From Desulfobacula sp. (GTDB lineage: Bacteria > Desulfobacterota > Desulfobacteria > Desulfobacterales > Desulfobacteraceae): a stretch of 39,483 nt of DNA. Positions within the stretch are counted from its first letter, which is position 1, and every line of letters starts with the position of its first letter. The notes beneath the pieces are model-generated. The model did not search any database. It saw only the letters and a program-made list of their open reading frames with translations, and was not told the origin of the DNA. The DNA lies in NCBI GenBank assembly GCA_021647625.1, contig JAKIUJ010000016.1, positions 1 through 39,483 of the forward strand, in the 5' to 3' direction. Made by a program: the position numbers and the translations under genes. Below, piece by piece: positions 14,140 through 22,185 of this stretch.

Positions 14140-14745
14140 TTAGAAAATTTGATCTTGAATTGATGCCAGGGTCATGGATATTATTTTTTTTAGTGTGGCA
14201 ATGACATTGCCGCCGTTTAGCGCACTGGCCTCAAACGCAGGCACCCGCAACATGCTGTTCAGGTCTTTTTGCATGATATTTGAAGCAAGCAAGGGGACAG
14301 GTGTCTTTTTCAGATCGATTTTATTGTATTGCATAACTAAAGGAATATTGAAAAGATCCAGATTATAGCTTTCAAGATTTTCATAAAGCTGATTCAGGGA
14401 ATCAATGTTTTTTTTGCGTTGTTCTTTTTGAACATCTGCGACAAATACGATGCCGTCAACACCCCTTAAAACGAGTCGTCTTGTGGCATTATACTTTACC
14501 TGACCCGGCACGGTGTATAATTGAATCGTAATATCAAACCCTTTTATCTGTCCAACATCAAATGGTAAAAAATCAAAAAACAGTGTGCGGTCATCCTGAG
14601 TTTTTAAGCTGACCATTTCTGTTTTAATCTGGTTCCGGTAGGTCTCGTTTATGTATTCAAGATTGGTTGTCTTGCCACCTCTTCCAGGGCCATAATAAAC
14701 GATCTTTATTTGAACTTCTTTTGTTTTTACATTGATAAGCGCCAA
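14140..14745 (-). CDS. MglA-like small Ras-family GTPase
   Basis: MglA GTPases control polarity and motility in Myxococcus and related bacteria by cycling between GTP and GDP forms. This protein shows the MglA hallmarks: KIVYYGPGRGGKTTN (P-loop), RTLFFDFLPFDVGQIKGF (switch I region), LYTVPGQ (switch II; MglA-type TVPGQ rather than Ras DTAGQ), GVDGIVFVAD and NKID for guanine binding. I prefer the TTG at 14745, which has AAGGA six bases upstream and gives an N-terminus matching the MglA length exactly. A TTG at 14751 overlaps the ribosome site. The product is 201 residues, close to the usual 195. It sits 50 nt after an MglB-like Roadblock gene, the classic MglB-MglA pairing. Motility, polarity or another localisation role cannot be decided here. 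Confidence 0.92.
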   Translation of the reverse strand: MALINVKTKEVQIKIVYYGPGRGGKTTNLEYINETYRNQIKTEMVSLKTQDDRTLFFDFLPFDVGQIKGFDITIQLYTVPGQVKYNATRRLVLRGVDGIVFVADVQKEQRKKNIDSLNQLYENLESYNLDLFNIPLVMQYNKIDLKKTPVPLLASNIMQKDLNSMLRVPAFEASALNGGNVIATLKKIISMTLASIQDQIF

Positions 14746-14795
14746 ATTCAATCCTTGAGTTTTTTTCCGGATCAGTGTTCCTGAGTATTTTGCGG

Positions 14796-15185
14796 TTATG
14801 CGTTTTCAGTTAAAATTTTTTTTATTCCGTCAATTGTTTCGGCAACTTTTAATCTCACAAGACCTAAAGAGATATCTTTATTGAACATGGCAATTAAAAG
14901 TGTATCATCAGTGACTTTGCTAAAATGAATGCTTGATTTTTCACCTTTATGAAACAATAAAGAAAATTCAGTTTCACCCACAAGTTTTGCCATGGCGTCT
15001 ACAGCAGCAAAATTTCCGGCAGCAAGCGCAGCAAAAGCTATTGAATCCAGTTGGGTTTTGCCATTGTCATGTTTTGCAATGGCATTGCCTGCCATATCAA
15101 GAAAGATGACATTATCAAGTCCGGATTCTATCAGGTTGGCTTGAATGATATGATCTATGCCGTCAAGTTGACTTTGATTAAACAT
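14796..15185 (-). CDS. Roadblock/LC7 domain protein, MglB-like
   Basis: The 129-residue protein has a full Roadblock/LC7 domain: an N-terminal helix (QLDGIDHIIQANLIESG), a strand pair with VIFLDMAGNAIAKHD, a long Ala-rich helix (DSIAFAALAAGNFAAVDAMA), then SSIHFSKVTDDTLLIAMFNK and a C-terminal helix. MglB is the GTPase-activating partner of MglA, and this gene is the first of the operon, just ahead of the MglA-like GTPase, so that is the likely role. The ATG is at 15183-15185; the ribosome site is weak. It diverges from the Cache-HAMP kinase gene across 289 bp, so the kinase/regulator pair could control this operon. Confidence 0.85.
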   Translation of the reverse strand: MFNQSQLDGIDHIIQANLIESGLDNVIFLDMAGNAIAKHDNGKTQLDSIAFAALAAGNFAAVDAMAKLVGETEFSLLFHKGEKSSIHFSKVTDDTLLIAMFNKDISLGLVRLKVAETIDGIKKILTENA

Positions 15186-15474: not shown

Positions 15475-17679
15475 ATGAGAATCTCTTTATCAAAAAAATT
15501 ATTCATTTTTATTTTCATCAGCCTGGCTTTTATCATCCTGCCATTGTTTTTTATTGCCAGAGCCTCTCTAAATCAGTTTGGATCGTATGCCTATGATGTA
15601 AATGAAAAACAGATCAAAAAATCTTCCCGGTTTTACATGGCGAGCATTGCTGAAGAGCAGGCAAAAACATATGACGAGATTTTTGAAAAGATAAGTATTG
15701 CTTCATCCCTTATGGGCCATCAACTCACACAGATTTATCAGCAAATGGACGGGCGAAGTCAATCCAGTCCACATCGTGTGGTTCCTTTAACAAAAAAACC
15801 GGAAAACGGGATTTTTTATACCCCGCACTATGAACCGGTGATAATGGCTTTTTGGGGGGATGATAAGATATCCCCAGAGATTGAGATTGAATTAGGTGCT
15901 TTATCGCAATTTATGCCGACATTGATGGAAGCCAAAGAAAAAATTCATGAAAGCCTTGCTGTTCACATTATTACGATCTCCGGTATCGGGTGTTATTATA
16001 CCACTAATTCCTTAGCAAAGACGGCTTGCTATCATCTTCCCCCTGTTTCCGAGTTTGATTTAAGACAAGGAGAACCTGTGACATTGTTTACCCGGTCTAA
16101 TACTCGGTATTTTGACACAAAATGGACCGGAATTTACAAGGATGATGTGATCGATGGGTTGGTGATCACGGCATCCACACCCATTTATGATTCAAACAAT
16201 CAATTTAAAGGGATAACTGGAATTGATATTTCTGTGGACTATATCACTAAAAATTTAATTGGAAATACCGCAAGGGTGGACGGCATTGATGAAAGTATCC
16301 TTTTTTCGTTCTTATTAAATCAAGATGGGAAAATAATTGCGTTTCCCCGGGAGTTTTTACCTCTTTTCGGGCTGGATGTTGATTTTAGACAATTTAAAAA
16401 TTCAAGCGATATTTTCAATTATAAATTGAGTGACTCAAAAATATCCGCTATTCGAAATACGGAAAATTTGATCACCCCAACCCGGCATGGAATAATTGAT
16501 GTACAGATTGAAAAAGAAAATTATCTTATGGCTGTAGGTTCTTTGAATTCGGTTGGATGGCATCTGGTGTGTGTTGCAAAGGAATCTGATTTAACCGCAT
16601 CTTTAGAAAAGACAGGAAAGGCCCTGGAAAAGAGTTTAACGACAATATGGCGGGATTTTTTGGGGTATTTCGGTTTCATTTTATTGGCGCTGATTTTCTT
16701 TGTGTTAACTGCAATCAGGGTTTTTATTATGCCCATTCGCGATTTTATTGATGCAACAAAAAAAGTATCCAAAGGAGATTTTACTTTAACATTGGATACA
16801 AATCGAACAGATGAAATCGGGCAATTGGCGCGGTCTTTTAATCTGATGGTTAAAAAATTAAAATTATCCGAAAATATTGAAAGAGAGCATGCCAATGAAC
16901 TTGAAAACAGGATACTATCGCGTACAGCCGAGCTTGAAAAGACCAATACCCAATTGAATCAGATTAAAGACAGCCTTGAGAAAATTATTACAAAAAGAAC
17001 GGTTCAACTTAGAAAATTAAACGAACACCTGGTCTATTCCGAGGAGACAGCAAGAAAAGCCATTGCATCTGATCTTCATGACAGTGTGACACAAAGTCTG
17101 GCCATGTGTATATCAAAGCTTAAGGATATACAGGAATCCGATACGCAAATGGATAAAGAGAATTTATTGCCTGTGCAGGAATATATAGAGCAAGCGGTAA
17201 GAGAAATTCGATCGCTTATCTACCAATTGAGTCCGCCTGTACTGGATGATTTTGATATTGATATTGCTTTGGGCTTTCTTATTGAAGAGACAAATATCAA
17301 ACATTGCAGTAAGTTATCATATGTCAATAATATCGAGTCTTCAATAAAAATGGAACAGTCCGTCAAAGTAACTCTATATAGAGCTGTAAGTGAACTGATT
17401 ATCAATATTATCAAGCATGCAAAAACAAAAACAGGCAGGGTTTCGATTGCATATACCAAAGGAATTATCAAGCTGACTGTTACAGATCAGGGCATTGGGT
17501 TTGATGTTAAATCAATAATAAATATCGAAACATCCGGGTTTGGCTTGAACAGTATCGCAGAGAGAATGGAAAATTTCGGAGGAAAGATTGAAGTTGAATC
17601 TACCCCCGGCACAGGAACATATATTTGCTTGACTCTGCCGGTTCAAATGCATAAAAAGTTTATAAATGAAAATGATTAA
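15475..17679 (+). CDS. Membrane sensor kinase, Cache-HAMP-HisKA_3 (NarX/LiaS type)
   Basis: The 734-residue protein has an N-terminal membrane segment (residues 10-30), a large extracytoplasmic region of about 360 residues with dCache features (SASTPIYDSNNQFKGITGID is a typical stretch, reading as ITASTPIYDSNNQFKGITG here), and a second membrane segment near 395-417. A HAMP domain follows (MPIRDFIDATKKVSKGDF), then a coiled coil, HisKA_3 with the phospho-accepting His535 in AIASDLHDSVTQSLA, and an ATPase domain (ELIINIIKHA, DQGIGFD, GFGLNSIAERM). Kinases of this class pair with NarL-type regulators, and one follows with a 14-nt overlap. The ligand is probably a small molecule in the periplasm. 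The gene diverges from the Roadblock/GTPase operon. Confidence 0.92.
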   Translation: MRISLSKKLFIFIFISLAFIILPLFFIARASLNQFGSYAYDVNEKQIKKSSRFYMASIAEEQAKTYDEIFEKISIASSLMGHQLTQIYQQMDGRSQSSPHRVVPLTKKPENGIFYTPHYEPVIMAFWGDDKISPEIEIELGALSQFMPTLMEAKEKIHESLAVHIITISGIGCYYTTNSLAKTACYHLPPVSEFDLRQGEPVTLFTRSNTRYFDTKWTGIYKDDVIDGLVITASTPIYDSNNQFKGITGIDISVDYITKNLIGNTARVDGIDESILFSFLLNQDGKIIAFPREFLPLFGLDVDFRQFKNSSDIFNYKLSDSKISAIRNTENLITPTRHGIIDVQIEKENYLMAVGSLNSVGWHLVCVAKESDLTASLEKTGKALEKSLTTIWRDFLGYFGFILLALIFFVLTAIRVFIMPIRDFIDATKKVSKGDFTLTLDTNRTDEIGQLARSFNLMVKKLKLSENIEREHANELENRILSRTAELEKTNTQLNQIKDSLEKIITKRTVQLRKLNEHLVYSEETARKAIASDLHDSVTQSLAMCISKLKDIQESDTQMDKENLLPVQEYIEQAVREIRSLIYQLSPPVLDDFDIDIALGFLIEETNIKHCSKLSYVNNIESSIKMEQSVKVTLYRAVSELIINIIKHAKTKTGRVSIAYTKGIIKLTVTDQGIGFDVKSIINIETSGFGLNSIAERMENFGGKIEVESTPGTGTYICLTLPVQMHKKFINEND

Positions 17680-18358
17680 AATTGTCATAGCAGATGATCA
17701 CAGTATTTTGCAGCATGGGCTCTGTAATTCGTTGGAATTGGAGAAAAATATTGTGGTTGCTGGTAAAGCAGAATCCGGTTATGAGGCCATTGAACTTGCT
17801 AAAAAATTCAGACCGGATATGGTGATCATGGATGTCAGTATGCCGGGGCTCAACGGTATAGAGGCGACTAAGCAGATTCTTAAGCTATATCCGGTAATTA
17901 AGGTTATGGCGCTGTCCATGCATACAGAAAGAATATATATAGCAGGAATGATGCAAGCCGGTGCATCCGGTTATATTTTAAAATCATGTTCATTTAATGA
18001 GTTGCTTGCCGGTATCCATGCCATAATATCCGGTGAATGTTATTTTTGTAGAGAAGTGAAGCATTTGGTTGGGGGTGTAAATAATGATAATGTTGATGAT
18101 CCGCCCGCATCTGTTTTTTCTTTGTTATCTAAAAGAGAGCGTGAAATTTTGCAATTAATTGCTGAAGGCGCTAAAAGCCGGCGAATTGCAGAGAAGCTGA
18201 AAATCAGTGTGAAAACCGTCGATAACCATCGGACCCGCTTGAAAATGAAATTGAATATTCACAGTATTGCCGAGCTAACTAAATTTGCGATAGCTGAAGG
18301 GTTGACGTCTCCTGCCATATCACCTTGTTTATCTAAATTTGTGAAAAAAAATACATAA
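17666..18358 (+). CDS. NarL/FixJ-type response regulator
   Basis: The 230-residue protein has a receiver domain (IVIADDHSIL; acceptor Asp56 in VIMDVSMPGLNG; conserved Lys in SGYILKS) and a C-terminal LuxR-type helix-turn-helix (LSKREREILQLIAEGAKSRR, then ISVKTVDNHRTRLKMKL). It should be phosphorylated by the kinase whose gene it overlaps by 14 nt and bind DNA as a dimer. The palindrome and inverted repeats directly downstream (18382-18467) are candidate targets, as is the inverted repeat upstream of the kinase. An alternative start two codons later is possible. The C-terminal 20 residues beyond the helix-turn-helix are unremarkable. Confidence 0.95.
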   Translation: MKMIKIVIADDHSILQHGLCNSLELEKNIVVAGKAESGYEAIELAKKFRPDMVIMDVSMPGLNGIEATKQILKLYPVIKVMALSMHTERIYIAGMMQAGASGYILKSCSFNELLAGIHAIISGECYFCREVKHLVGGVNNDNVDDPPASVFSLLSKREREILQLIAEGAKSRRIAEKLKISVKTVDNHRTRLKMKLNIHSIAELTKFAIAEGLTSPAISPCLSKFVKKNT

Positions 18359-18962: not shown

Positions 18963-20417
18963 TTATGACTGACAGATGCGTTCATAGCGAATGTTCTTGC
19001 CGTTTGAATCAACGATATTAAGATTTATGAAACTGCCACCATCCAGGCGGTGCGTTGCGCAGGAAATTCAGGGGTCATAGGCCCGGACAGCCATTTCCAC
19101 CCGGTTCAAAATGCCTTCATCGATTTTTCCATTTTTGATTAATAGCCTTGCTGACTGTTCCACACTCATACTGATTGGTGCCAGATTATGTGTGGTGCCG
19201 ACAATCATATTAGCGGTAACAATGCACCCATTATCATCTGTTGTATAATCGTGAATTAATGTTCCCCGGGGTGCCTCTACATGGCCTACTCCCCGGCCGG
19301 CCTGGGGCATAACATTCAATCTGTGTTTGCCACCGGTAATATCATTGTTTTCAAGAAGTTCTTTTGTTTTTTCGCAGGCATAAACAAGCTCTATCAGCCG
19401 TGCCCAGTGATAGAGCAGGGTATGTTGCGCCGGTCGTCCGAAATTATTTCTGAACACTTCGAGTTCTTTTTGGGCAATAGGGGTTGAGATGCCGTCGCAT
19501 ACATTGATCCTGGCAAGACAATTGGATCGATATATACCTTTGGGGGTGTCAAGATCCATGGAAAATCCTTCTTCCCAGGATTTGGCATAGGGGAATTTCC
19601 CATAGGAGACATCAACTACATGTTCTCCAATATGATCAAGATAGGAAAAAGCATTAAAGTCATTAAAAGATCCATCCGGTTTCATCAGACGAATATCACC
19701 ATCGTAAAAATTGAGAGAACCGTCATTTCCAACAGTTCCGATAAATCCGGTGTTAATGGTGCCAAGGCTGGTCATTTCATCAGGATATCTGGGAAAGATA
19801 TTCTCTTTGGCATATGCAATGGTGAACTTGGCAAAGTCCAATAATTCCCTGGAATCGTTGAGAAGACTCCGGCGCTGGCTTTCAGACATGGATTTTGAAA
19901 ATCCACCCGGGACTGCAGCAACTGGGTGAATCACCTTGCCTGCAAATTTTTCCATCATCATCTGACCCAGTTGCCGCATTTTTATCACCCGTTTTGCCAA
20001 ATCAGGAGCAGCTTTTGCTATACCAATAACGTTTCTGACGGAATAATCCGAATCCGGACCCATAATAAAATCCGGGCCGGCCAGAAAATAAAAATGTAGA
20101 ATTTTATCATGAATATGGGCCATATTTTGCATACATTCTCGAAGCATGTGGCCGGCCGGTGCAACTTTCGCATTAAAACAGCCATCTACAGCTTTTGTAG
20201 ATGCCAGGTGATGGTGCCAGGGGCAGATGCCGCAGATACGTGTGACAATGCGGGTTACCTCTTCGGCCGGCTTGCCCTGTACATATTTTTCAAACCCGCG
20301 AATGCTGCTAAAGTGGGTAATCGTTTTATCTACGTTCCCCTGATCATCAAGTTCTATTTTGATGCTTGCATGCCCCTCAATTCTTGAAAGCGGCTGGATA
20401 TGGATTGTATTTCCCAT
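18963..20417 (-). CDS. mvhA: [NiFe(Se)] hydrogenase large subunit, MvhA/VhuA-like selenoprotein
   Basis: This is the catalytic subunit of a group 3 (Mvh/Vhu, F420-non-reducing type) hydrogenase. The first nickel motif is RICGIC (Cys62, Cys65). The frame meets TGA at 19068-19070 right after RAYDP. Reading through gives DP-U-ISCATH, the second nickel motif DPCxxCxxH with selenocysteine (residue 450) in place of the first Cys, and 28 further residues before TAA at 18963-18965. That tail is the expected peptide removed by the maturation protease after nickel insertion, and a protease gene lies just upstream. The full length is 484 residues; stopping at the TGA would remove half of the nickel site. 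In methanogens such as Methanococcus, VhuU carries DPUxxC as a separate small peptide; here the two are one chain. The ATG directly follows the mvhG stop codon. Confidence 0.93.
19036..19070 (-). promoter_or_regulatory. Selenocysteine UGA and candidate bacterial SECIS hairpin
   Basis: On the minus strand, 22 nt after the UGA (19068-19070), CCGCC (19050-19046) pairs with GGTGG (19040-19036), including one G-U pair, around the loop TGGAT. A G in the first two loop bases and this distance from the UGA agree with known bacterial SECIS rules. The stem is short, so a folding check is needed. Confidence 0.6.
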
Positions 20418-21413
20418 CTATTTATTTGACTCCTTTTTGCAGATTAAGCGGTTGTGGGCACCCGAAAACCGTAACAAACTGTCTCTATCCGGCAGGGTGT
20501 TTATGTCAATACCATTGCTTGCAAGCGCATTGAGCATGTCTAAAAGTTGGTTGCCATCCTGTTTTACAGGCCCGTAACACCCTCTACAAGGCACCCTGGC
20601 ACCCAGGCATCTTGGTATTCCTCCATTATTTTTGGCATACTCGTCGGAATAGCTGCTGGAATATCCACCGGAACATCCATCGGAACATCCGGCTTTTGTG
20701 ACCGGACCGGAACATAAGTAACCCTGTTCAAGGAGACATTCCATTTCATCGATGGGCTTTTGGGGGTCAAACTGTGGTGTCGTAATAAAGCGTTTAATTT
20801 GTTTGATATTGCCTTTGCCTTTTCGGATTGTTGGACAGGTATCACAAACACTTCTAAACGGCAGTTTTAATTTATCTCCCCTGAGTAACGCAAAAATGGC
20901 GCCCCCAATCTGATCCGGGTGGGGCGGGCATCCTGGCAGATAAATATCTACTTTTATGTGTTCGTCCAATGCATAACATCTATCCAGAAGCTTTGGCACG
21001 CCATTGAAAGGAATTGTTGCACCGGGCTTTGTACTCTTGGTGGTGTAGTATTGATCAAGCAGATCTTCAGTAGTAAAGGCATTGGCCATGGCTGGAATAC
21101 CGCCATGGGTGGCACAGGTTCCTAAACTTATTAAAACGTCACATTTCTTGCGCATCTCAGTGGCAATTGCAAGGTGGTCTTCATTCCTGATGCCACCTGA
21201 GACTATCCCCGCAGCAGCATGTGGGATATCGATGGCTGATTTTTCTCCTAATTGTCCATAATACTTATGATCCATGAGGATCGGAAAATGGACAAAATCA
21301 AGTTTTGGCAAGAGGTCTAAAAGTGTTTCTCCAATATTAAGGAGGGCGATTTCACATCCGGAACAGGCGTTGAGGCATTCACCGGCAATTTTTAATAAAC
21401 TATCATTTTCCAT
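20418..21413 (-). CDS. mvhG: [NiFe] hydrogenase small subunit, MvhG/VhuG-like
   Basis: The 331-residue protein carries the electron-transferring iron-sulfur clusters that partner the large subunit. The N-terminal proximal-cluster motif is visible in GECLNACSGCEIALLNIGE, followed by SLGTCATHGGIPA and DIYLPGCPPHPDQI, which match MvhG/FrhG small subunits. Further cysteines lie in CDTCP, YLCSGPVTKAGCSDGC and RVPCRGCYGP and would bind the medial and distal clusters. No Tat signal is present, so the enzyme is cytosolic, as in group 3. The stop codon abuts the mvhA start. No mvhD or hdrABC gene is seen within the window, so the electron acceptor is not defined by context. Confidence 0.93.
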   Translation of the reverse strand: MENDSLLKIAGECLNACSGCEIALLNIGETLLDLLPKLDFVHFPILMDHKYYGQLGEKSAIDIPHAAAGIVSGGIRNEDHLAIATEMRKKCDVLISLGTCATHGGIPAMANAFTTEDLLDQYYTTKSTKPGATIPFNGVPKLLDRCYALDEHIKVDIYLPGCPPHPDQIGGAIFALLRGDKLKLPFRSVCDTCPTIRKGKGNIKQIKRFITTPQFDPQKPIDEMECLLEQGYLCSGPVTKAGCSDGCSGGYSSSYSDEYAKNNGGIPRCLGARVPCRGCYGPVKQDGNQLLDMLNALASNGIDINTLPDRDSLLRFSGAHNRLICKKESNK

Positions 21414-21441: not shown

Positions 21442-21597
21442 ATGTAGTGTTTGAACGAAAACCCACCCATCTGCTTCGTTGCTGCAAAATCCTGAAATCC
21501 TCATGTACAGTAGTACACTCCGGTTTCAGGATTTCTTGCGCCTTGCATATGGGCAACTTTTCGCCCAAACACGGGTTTTCGGTCAGGCACTATGTAA
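21442..21597. repeat. Complete ~155-bp palindromic repeat (copy B)
   Basis: The ends are imperfect inverted repeats: ATGTAGTGTTTGAACG..AACCC at 21442-21464 and GGGTTTTCGGTCAGGCACTA within 21573-21595. The centre is also palindromic (AATCCTGAAA ... TTTCAGGATT around GTACAGTAGTAC). It encodes nothing. It lies between the maturation protease gene and mvhG. Related pieces occur at 9058, 30628 and 37207. It resembles MITE/REP-like intergenic elements. Confidence 0.8.
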
Positions 21598-21609: not shown

Positions 21610-22185
21610 TCAGTCTAATATTTGATGTTTTGTCAAAACCTCTGGTTTTTTGGGCAAACCTGTATGAAAATCATGGCTCTGCCCCATGGTAGTCTGTTTG
21701 ATGTTATTAATTTCATGAACAATCCAATCGCATGCTTTTTTTATGGCCTTTTGGGCAGCAGGGCTCAACCCAGGTGAGATTTCGTTGGGTATGGATGGTG
21801 TATGCATTCCCAATATTTTTACCTGTACACCCGATTCCATCAGCTGATCTAACAAATTTGACGATGGCGATTGATGAAGAGAAAAATCAGATTTCTTTTT
21901 TTTAGGAAAATCTGAAAGATTGATTTCGAAAACGTCACCTTCATTTTTTTTCTCAACCGTGATGGCATCAATAATCCAGAGAACTGCCGGCTTTTTTTCG
22001 GCAAGCAGTAAATCAAAAATAAAATCTCTGACTCCTGTTCCTGCATCCAGCGCTAGAACATCTTCCGAAATCGAATACTCAGCGTTCAGTCTCTTAATCA
22101 CTTCGGGTCCAAATCCATCGTTTCCAAATAAGGTATTCCCGCAGCCGAAAATAAGTATTTTTTTTGTATAAATTAAAGTATTCAT
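21610..22185 (-). CDS. Hydrogenase maturation protease (HyaD/HycI/FrcD family)
   Basis: These endopeptidases cut the C-terminal tail of the hydrogenase large subunit after nickel is inserted. The family signature is GCGNTLFGNDGFGPEVIKRL at the N-terminus, with the metal-binding Glu (in FGPEVI) and Asp (ALDAGTG) and the later His (LGMHTPS). The length, 191 residues, is slightly above the usual 150-175 because of a C-terminal tail of about 30 residues (QTTMGQSHDFHTGLPKKPEV). It is upstream of mvhG and mvhA on the same strand, separated from them by repeat copy B. Its likely substrate is the Sec-containing MvhA-like subunit, which keeps a 28-residue tail. The ATG at 22185 has only a weak ribosome site. 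Confidence 0.9.
   Translation of the reverse strand: MNTLIYTKKILIFGCGNTLFGNDGFGPEVIKRLNAEYSISEDVLALDAGTGVRDFIFDLLLAEKKPAVLWIIDAITVEKKNEGDVFEINLSDFPKKKKSDFSLHQSPSSNLLDQLMESGVQVKILGMHTPSIPNEISPGLSPAAQKAIKKACDWIVHEINNIKQTTMGQSHDFHTGLPKKPEVLTKHQILD

Follow-up and report, generated by a model that had tools for sequence, protein, structure and literature searches.

The gene at positions 18963 to 20417 (minus strand) of the window, the stretch of 39,483 nucleotides analyzed here, very probably encodes selenocysteine (Sec) at the nickel site of a hydrogenase through an in-frame TGA at positions 19068 to 19070. Our reading, to which comparative sequence analysis leads us to assign a probability of about 0.97, is that the product is the large subunit of an Mvh/Vhu-type [NiFeSe] hydrogenase and that its UGA is decoded as Sec via SelB, tRNA-Sec, and a downstream hairpin. 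What we observed is the sequence, its conservation, a hairpin with compensatory changes, and most of the genes needed for Sec insertion. On the proposed mechanism, the large subunit would be the nickel-binding part of an enzyme predicted to be cytoplasmic; SelB and tRNA-Sec would insert Sec at the UGA, guided by the hairpin, which lies within the coding sequence directly 3′ of that codon; and Sec450 would stand in for the first Cys of DPCxxCxxH and bind nickel. The gene contains the following features:

18963..20417, minus strand: large subunit mvhA/vhuA plus the vhuU part in one chain, predicted Sec-containing Mvh/Vhu-type [NiFe] hydrogenase (484 aa counting Sec450)
20223..20234, minus strand: first nickel motif CGIC (Cys62, Cys65), from sequence and translation
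19068..19070, minus strand: in-frame TGA, predicted selenocysteine codon (Sec450) for the first ligand of the second nickel motif, DPUISCATH
19036..19050, minus strand: putative bacterial SECIS hairpin, stem CCGCC/GGUGG with a 5-nt loop UGGAU, from the alignment and a hairpin test
18966..19049, minus strand: C-terminal tail, 28 residues past His456, predicted target of the maturation protease

On the minus strand from 20417 to 18963, the frame opens with ATG and runs for 449 codons, ending in VRAYDP, before reaching the TGA as codon 450; ISCATH, a tail of 28 codons (RLDGG...ICQS), and TAA follow. This rereading agrees with the original prediction, which had the frame stop at TGA after RAYDP and had readthrough give DP-U-ISCATH plus 28 codons to TAA. 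Both nickel motifs are then present, CGIC at residues 62 to 65 and DPUISCATH at residues 448 to 456, in a protein of 484 aa if the TGA is taken as Sec. ORF calling with table 11 ends the large subunit at the TGA (449 aa), as would be expected if the codon were a real stop and the gene a pseudogene or the source of a truncated protein. We consider this highly improbable: the conserved ISCATH motif is encoded past the TGA, and the relatives, the hairpin, and the remainder of the genome, described below, all speak against it. Ordinary ORF calling loses a catalytic residue here, and annotation of such genomes should take the TGA as Sec.

The 484-aa read-through product matches the Pfam family NiFeSe_Hases. 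Its best NCBIfam match is VhuA (residues 4 to 428; 468 bits, below the cut-off of 800), compared with 140.7 bits on the HysA model; VhuU, which in NCBIfam is a model of its own with 45 positions, matches residues 432 to 459 (38.7 bits, below the cut-off of 70). The three best solved chains are all VhuA/MvhA-like (E = 1.5e-125, 5.9e-113, and 2.2e-110). The best of these stops short of the second motif, and the other two, both one-chain enzymes, have Cys at the place of the TGA; the solved one-chain Mvh large subunit 9sw2 aligns across the TGA (residues 6 to 476). The gene had been predicted to join VhuA and VhuU in one chain, and one chain it is, but this arrangement is not unusual, since the solved Mvh chains 9sw2 and 5odc are built likewise. 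By its VhuA/MvhA similarity, its two nickel motifs, its conserved Sec codon, and its cognate small subunit, the predicted protein classifies as an Mvh/Vhu-type [NiFeSe] large subunit.

Conservation of the TGA was examined by a motif search of related loci (L020 to L092), which yielded 71 sites, 51 of them distinct; two were HysA-type by motif, leaving 49 of the vhu type. The TGA occupies the same codon in 48 of these 49 distinct sites, which span many genera, and the sole exception is a TGC in a Dehalococcoidales draft (L081). Chance therefore does not explain the in-frame TGA, and its recurrence speaks against a real stop. This comparison of Mvh/Vhu homologs, in line with a check that had been proposed, supports the placement of a Sec codon at the position of the first Cys of DPCxxCxxH, in keeping with the motif DPUISCATH. 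The window genome is a draft of 332 contigs with 92.86% completeness and could in principle contain a sequencing or assembly error hiding a true Cys codon. Such an error is extremely unlikely given that other assemblies carry TGA at the same codon, among them that of Desulfospira joergensenii (L060) and two complete chromosomes, from Desulfoluna limicola (L063) and Desulfosarcina widdelii (L075). Across 389 genomes of the order, homologs at E ≤ 1e-60 were detected in 123, and among the matches listed, all those at least 58% identical and reaching the codon carry TGA.

A quick tree with 79 rows, rooted at the midpoint, puts all 51 Sec rows into one clade of 52 (SH-aLRT 99), where L081 is the lone Cys row; the Sec/Cys label needs two changes on the tree. 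The tree omits eight loci that yielded no motif or no frame of sufficient length (L085, L089, L091, L136, L138, L139, L147, and L150), as well as duplicates and L092. It includes 28 Cys rows, with Cys at the position of the TGA, which is known in this family as a nickel ligand. Both points argue against the TGA being read as some other amino acid, whether as tryptophan, as in some codes, or by near-cognate read-through; a tRNA-Sec with anticodon TCA in the genome also stands against that reading, to which we give next to no weight. The Dehalococcoidales site (L081:3821-3868) lies on a draft contig; it belongs to the Sec clade but has TGC for TGA and lacks the usual stem letters. An apparent second Sec group, consisting of eight listed matches with 38 to 42% identity and one TGA each (L140 to L147), was rejected: its TGA falls directly after CATH and is an ordinary stop. 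These eight genes encode Mvh-like Cys large subunits that end at CATH and have no cleavable C-terminal tail; seven of them are in the tree.

Bacterial SECIS elements carry a G early in the loop, at a distance from the UGA close to that seen here: the candidate hairpin has 22 nt from the UGA to the loop and G as its second loop base. In the alignment, which took in 48 of the 49 distinct sites and excluded L081 (TGC) as well as the Sec sites of L152 to L155, the stem occupies columns 21 to 25 and 31 to 35, numbering from the U of the UGA, and UGGAY forms the loop. Over 47 distinct rows, a six-pair helix was paired in 96.1% of 282 cells. Both sides had changed in 23 cells (17 at pair 21-35 and 6 at pair 22-34), and none of 500 shuffles scored as high on cells paired, both-side changes, or covariation score; versions of the helix slid along the alignment were all lower on cells paired and covariation score. 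Two of the five helix measures failed to exceed the shuffles, and the outermost pair (20-36) showed no covariation and was unpaired in 8 of the 47 rows. That the helix downstream of the TGA covaries is not what a real stop would predict.

A simple hairpin test was positive at 44 of the 48 Sec sites, with 4 failing, compared with 2 of 28 Cys sites and 33 of 1,727 TGA triplets on both strands of the window. When the codons of the window gene were resampled synonymously, 1,351 of 5,000 sequences also passed the hairpin criteria, so the hairpin in a single sequence proves little. Folding, as had been suggested with the original prediction, gave no support by energy: given its composition, the 50-nt hairpin stretch has no unusual stability (z = −0.14). 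The weight for this putative element comes from comparing sites and from the compensatory changes rather than from one fold. At gathering thresholds, Rfam placed no RNA family at the TGA site; its only match in the window is a tRNA, identified as tRNA-Pro by ARAGORN.

Most of the machinery for Sec insertion is encoded in the same genome: SelB (344.7 bits, open frame of 637 aa), tRNA-Sec (76.4 bits, anticodon TCA), and two SelD genes above the cut-off on separate contigs (C46 and C207; L016 and L017). Both SelD genes have an in-frame TGA at their CGU site (CGU-AAK), and a second hydrogenase gene bearing a TGA (L021) is HysA-type by motif. TGA codons at known Sec places in other genes, alongside this machinery, again weigh against a real stop in the large subunit. 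Neither TIGR00474 nor PF03841 detected SelA in the window's own genome, where the inspection around selB covered the 4,556 bases of L001, and this miss is the remaining point in favor of a stop; an absent Sec machinery had been named at the outset as grounds for abandoning the Sec reading, and SelB, tRNA-Sec, and SelD were found where SelA was missing from the draft. Because SelA is present in the 25 other genomes of the genus that were searched (25 of 26 in all, the window's own being the only miss), SelA probably lies in an assembly gap, and a true absence was set aside as less likely.

The large subunit is one of several genes in a cluster, with the following neighboring features:

21610..22185, minus strand: hydrogenase maturation protease, HycI/FrhD type, by profile match
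21455..21595, minus strand: high-copy palindromic repeat, at the place of hdrA-mvhD in most relatives
20418..21413, minus strand: small subunit mvhG/vhuG (Oxidored_q6; NCBIfam VhuG is the best match, below its cut-off)
17666..18358, plus strand: LuxR-family response regulator, convergent, with one at the same place in the congener G350 (L023/L052)
15475..17679, plus strand: histidine kinase, overlapping the response regulator, with one at the same place in G350 (L023/L052)

The order on the minus strand is protease, repeat, small subunit, and large subunit, so that the protease gene is not adjacent to the large subunit as had been claimed. Its product shares 60% identity, across 159 residues, with the protease from the Desulfospira cluster (L060). 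The earlier suggestion that the C-terminal tail is cut by a maturation protease fits the short tail past the motif and the protease gene in the cluster; this protease would probably remove the last 28 residues past His456 after nickel insertion. The adjoining small subunit is the likely partner of the large subunit.

Of 41 named relatives, 32 carry HdrA-like and MvhD-like genes on the upstream side of the small subunit. Among the nine others, five (L064, L073, L078, L079, and L080) have at most about 1 kb of upstream sequence, too little to tell, and two (L071 and L086) have less than 3 kb upstream of the small subunit. Neither hdrA nor mvhD was found in the window cluster; unlinked paralogs of both are present elsewhere in the genome. 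In G350 (L052), the protease and small subunit likewise stand side by side next to the same convergent regulator pair, without hdrA-mvhD. The HdrA of the Desulfospira operon has counterparts 75 to 76% identical in three genomes (G360, G361, and G377), whereas its best counterpart is only 56% identical in G350 and 50% in the window genome; for this reason both of these draft genomes seem to have lost the dedicated hdrA instead of having it at another place.

The electrons from H2 would probably pass to an MvhD-HdrA module encoded elsewhere. Among the fetched loci L093 to L100, the gene nearest to the operon MvhD is a copy on contig C146 (67% identity, no in-frame TGA), which adjoins an HdrA-like gene truncated at the edge of the contig as well as a CCG- and Fer4-domain gene that we read as HdrD-like. 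We tentatively suggest, as a scenario more doubtful than probable, that the selenium hydrogenase was severed from its dedicated Sec-containing HdrA-MvhD and now uses another acceptor, such as the unlinked MvhD on C146. If so, Sec would have been kept at the nickel though Sec in the electron partner was lost.

Several other observations were made in and around these loci. The repeat at 21455 to 21595 is a palindrome of ~138 bp (RNA fold z = −5.25) with at least 40 matches in the genome, itself included, at 93 to 100% identity (40 of 199 candidates scored); the gap between protease and small subunit in G350 is too short to hold it. In Desulfovibrio cuneatus (L088, 4004 to 6594 and 10086 to 10841), genes for a molybdopterin oxidoreductase and a 4Fe-4S protein lie upstream of the hydrogenase pair and a ferredoxin-MvhD-like gene lies downstream; the stretch retrieved for this locus showed no HdrA-like gene. 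Elsewhere in the window, a small Ras-like GTPase and a roadblock gene (MglB match below cut-off) form an MglA/MglB-like pair (14140 to 15185, minus strand).

Among known systems, the Vhu enzyme of Methanococcus (VhuA plus VhuU) has Sec at the same nickel ligand as that predicted for the window enzyme. In that enzyme the Sec segment forms a small subunit of its own, whereas the window enzyme is one chain, and the SECIS elements of archaea occupy other places in the mRNA. The periplasmic [NiFeSe] hydrogenase HysA likewise has Sec in the second nickel motif but belongs to a different hydrogenase group from the window enzyme (140.7 bits on HysA against 468 on VhuA). The 2006 account of Deltaproteobacteria (PMC1794560) describes Sec in this family and an operon hdrA-frhD-frhG-frhA; by that description rather than by sequence, it resembles the window cluster in having Sec in the large subunit, a bacterial in-frame UGA, and the small subunit just upstream, and differs in that the window cluster has neither hdrA nor mvhD. 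In Desulfobacterium autotrophicum HRM2, MvhA2DG was described in 2009 as a cytoplasmic selenocysteine-containing hydrogenase (PMC2702500), although the relevant passages do not state outright which subunit bears Sec; it is clustered with HdrA1 and HysAB, whereas the window cluster, again compared by description rather than by sequence, is without HdrA. Two later sources list such hydrogenases among the Sec proteins of a marine deltaproteobacterium (2021; PMC8318568) and MvhA/VhuA/VhuU, motif UxxC, as a Sec family verified by experiment (2026; PMC13188914). The one unusual point in the window, shared with G350, is the absence of hdrA-mvhD between the protease and the small subunit, which may help to probe whether Mvh hydrogenases can exchange one acceptor module for another. 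Enzymes of this kind have been on record in bacteria related to sulfate reducers for some twenty years, and the window gene adds one member to a known subclass.
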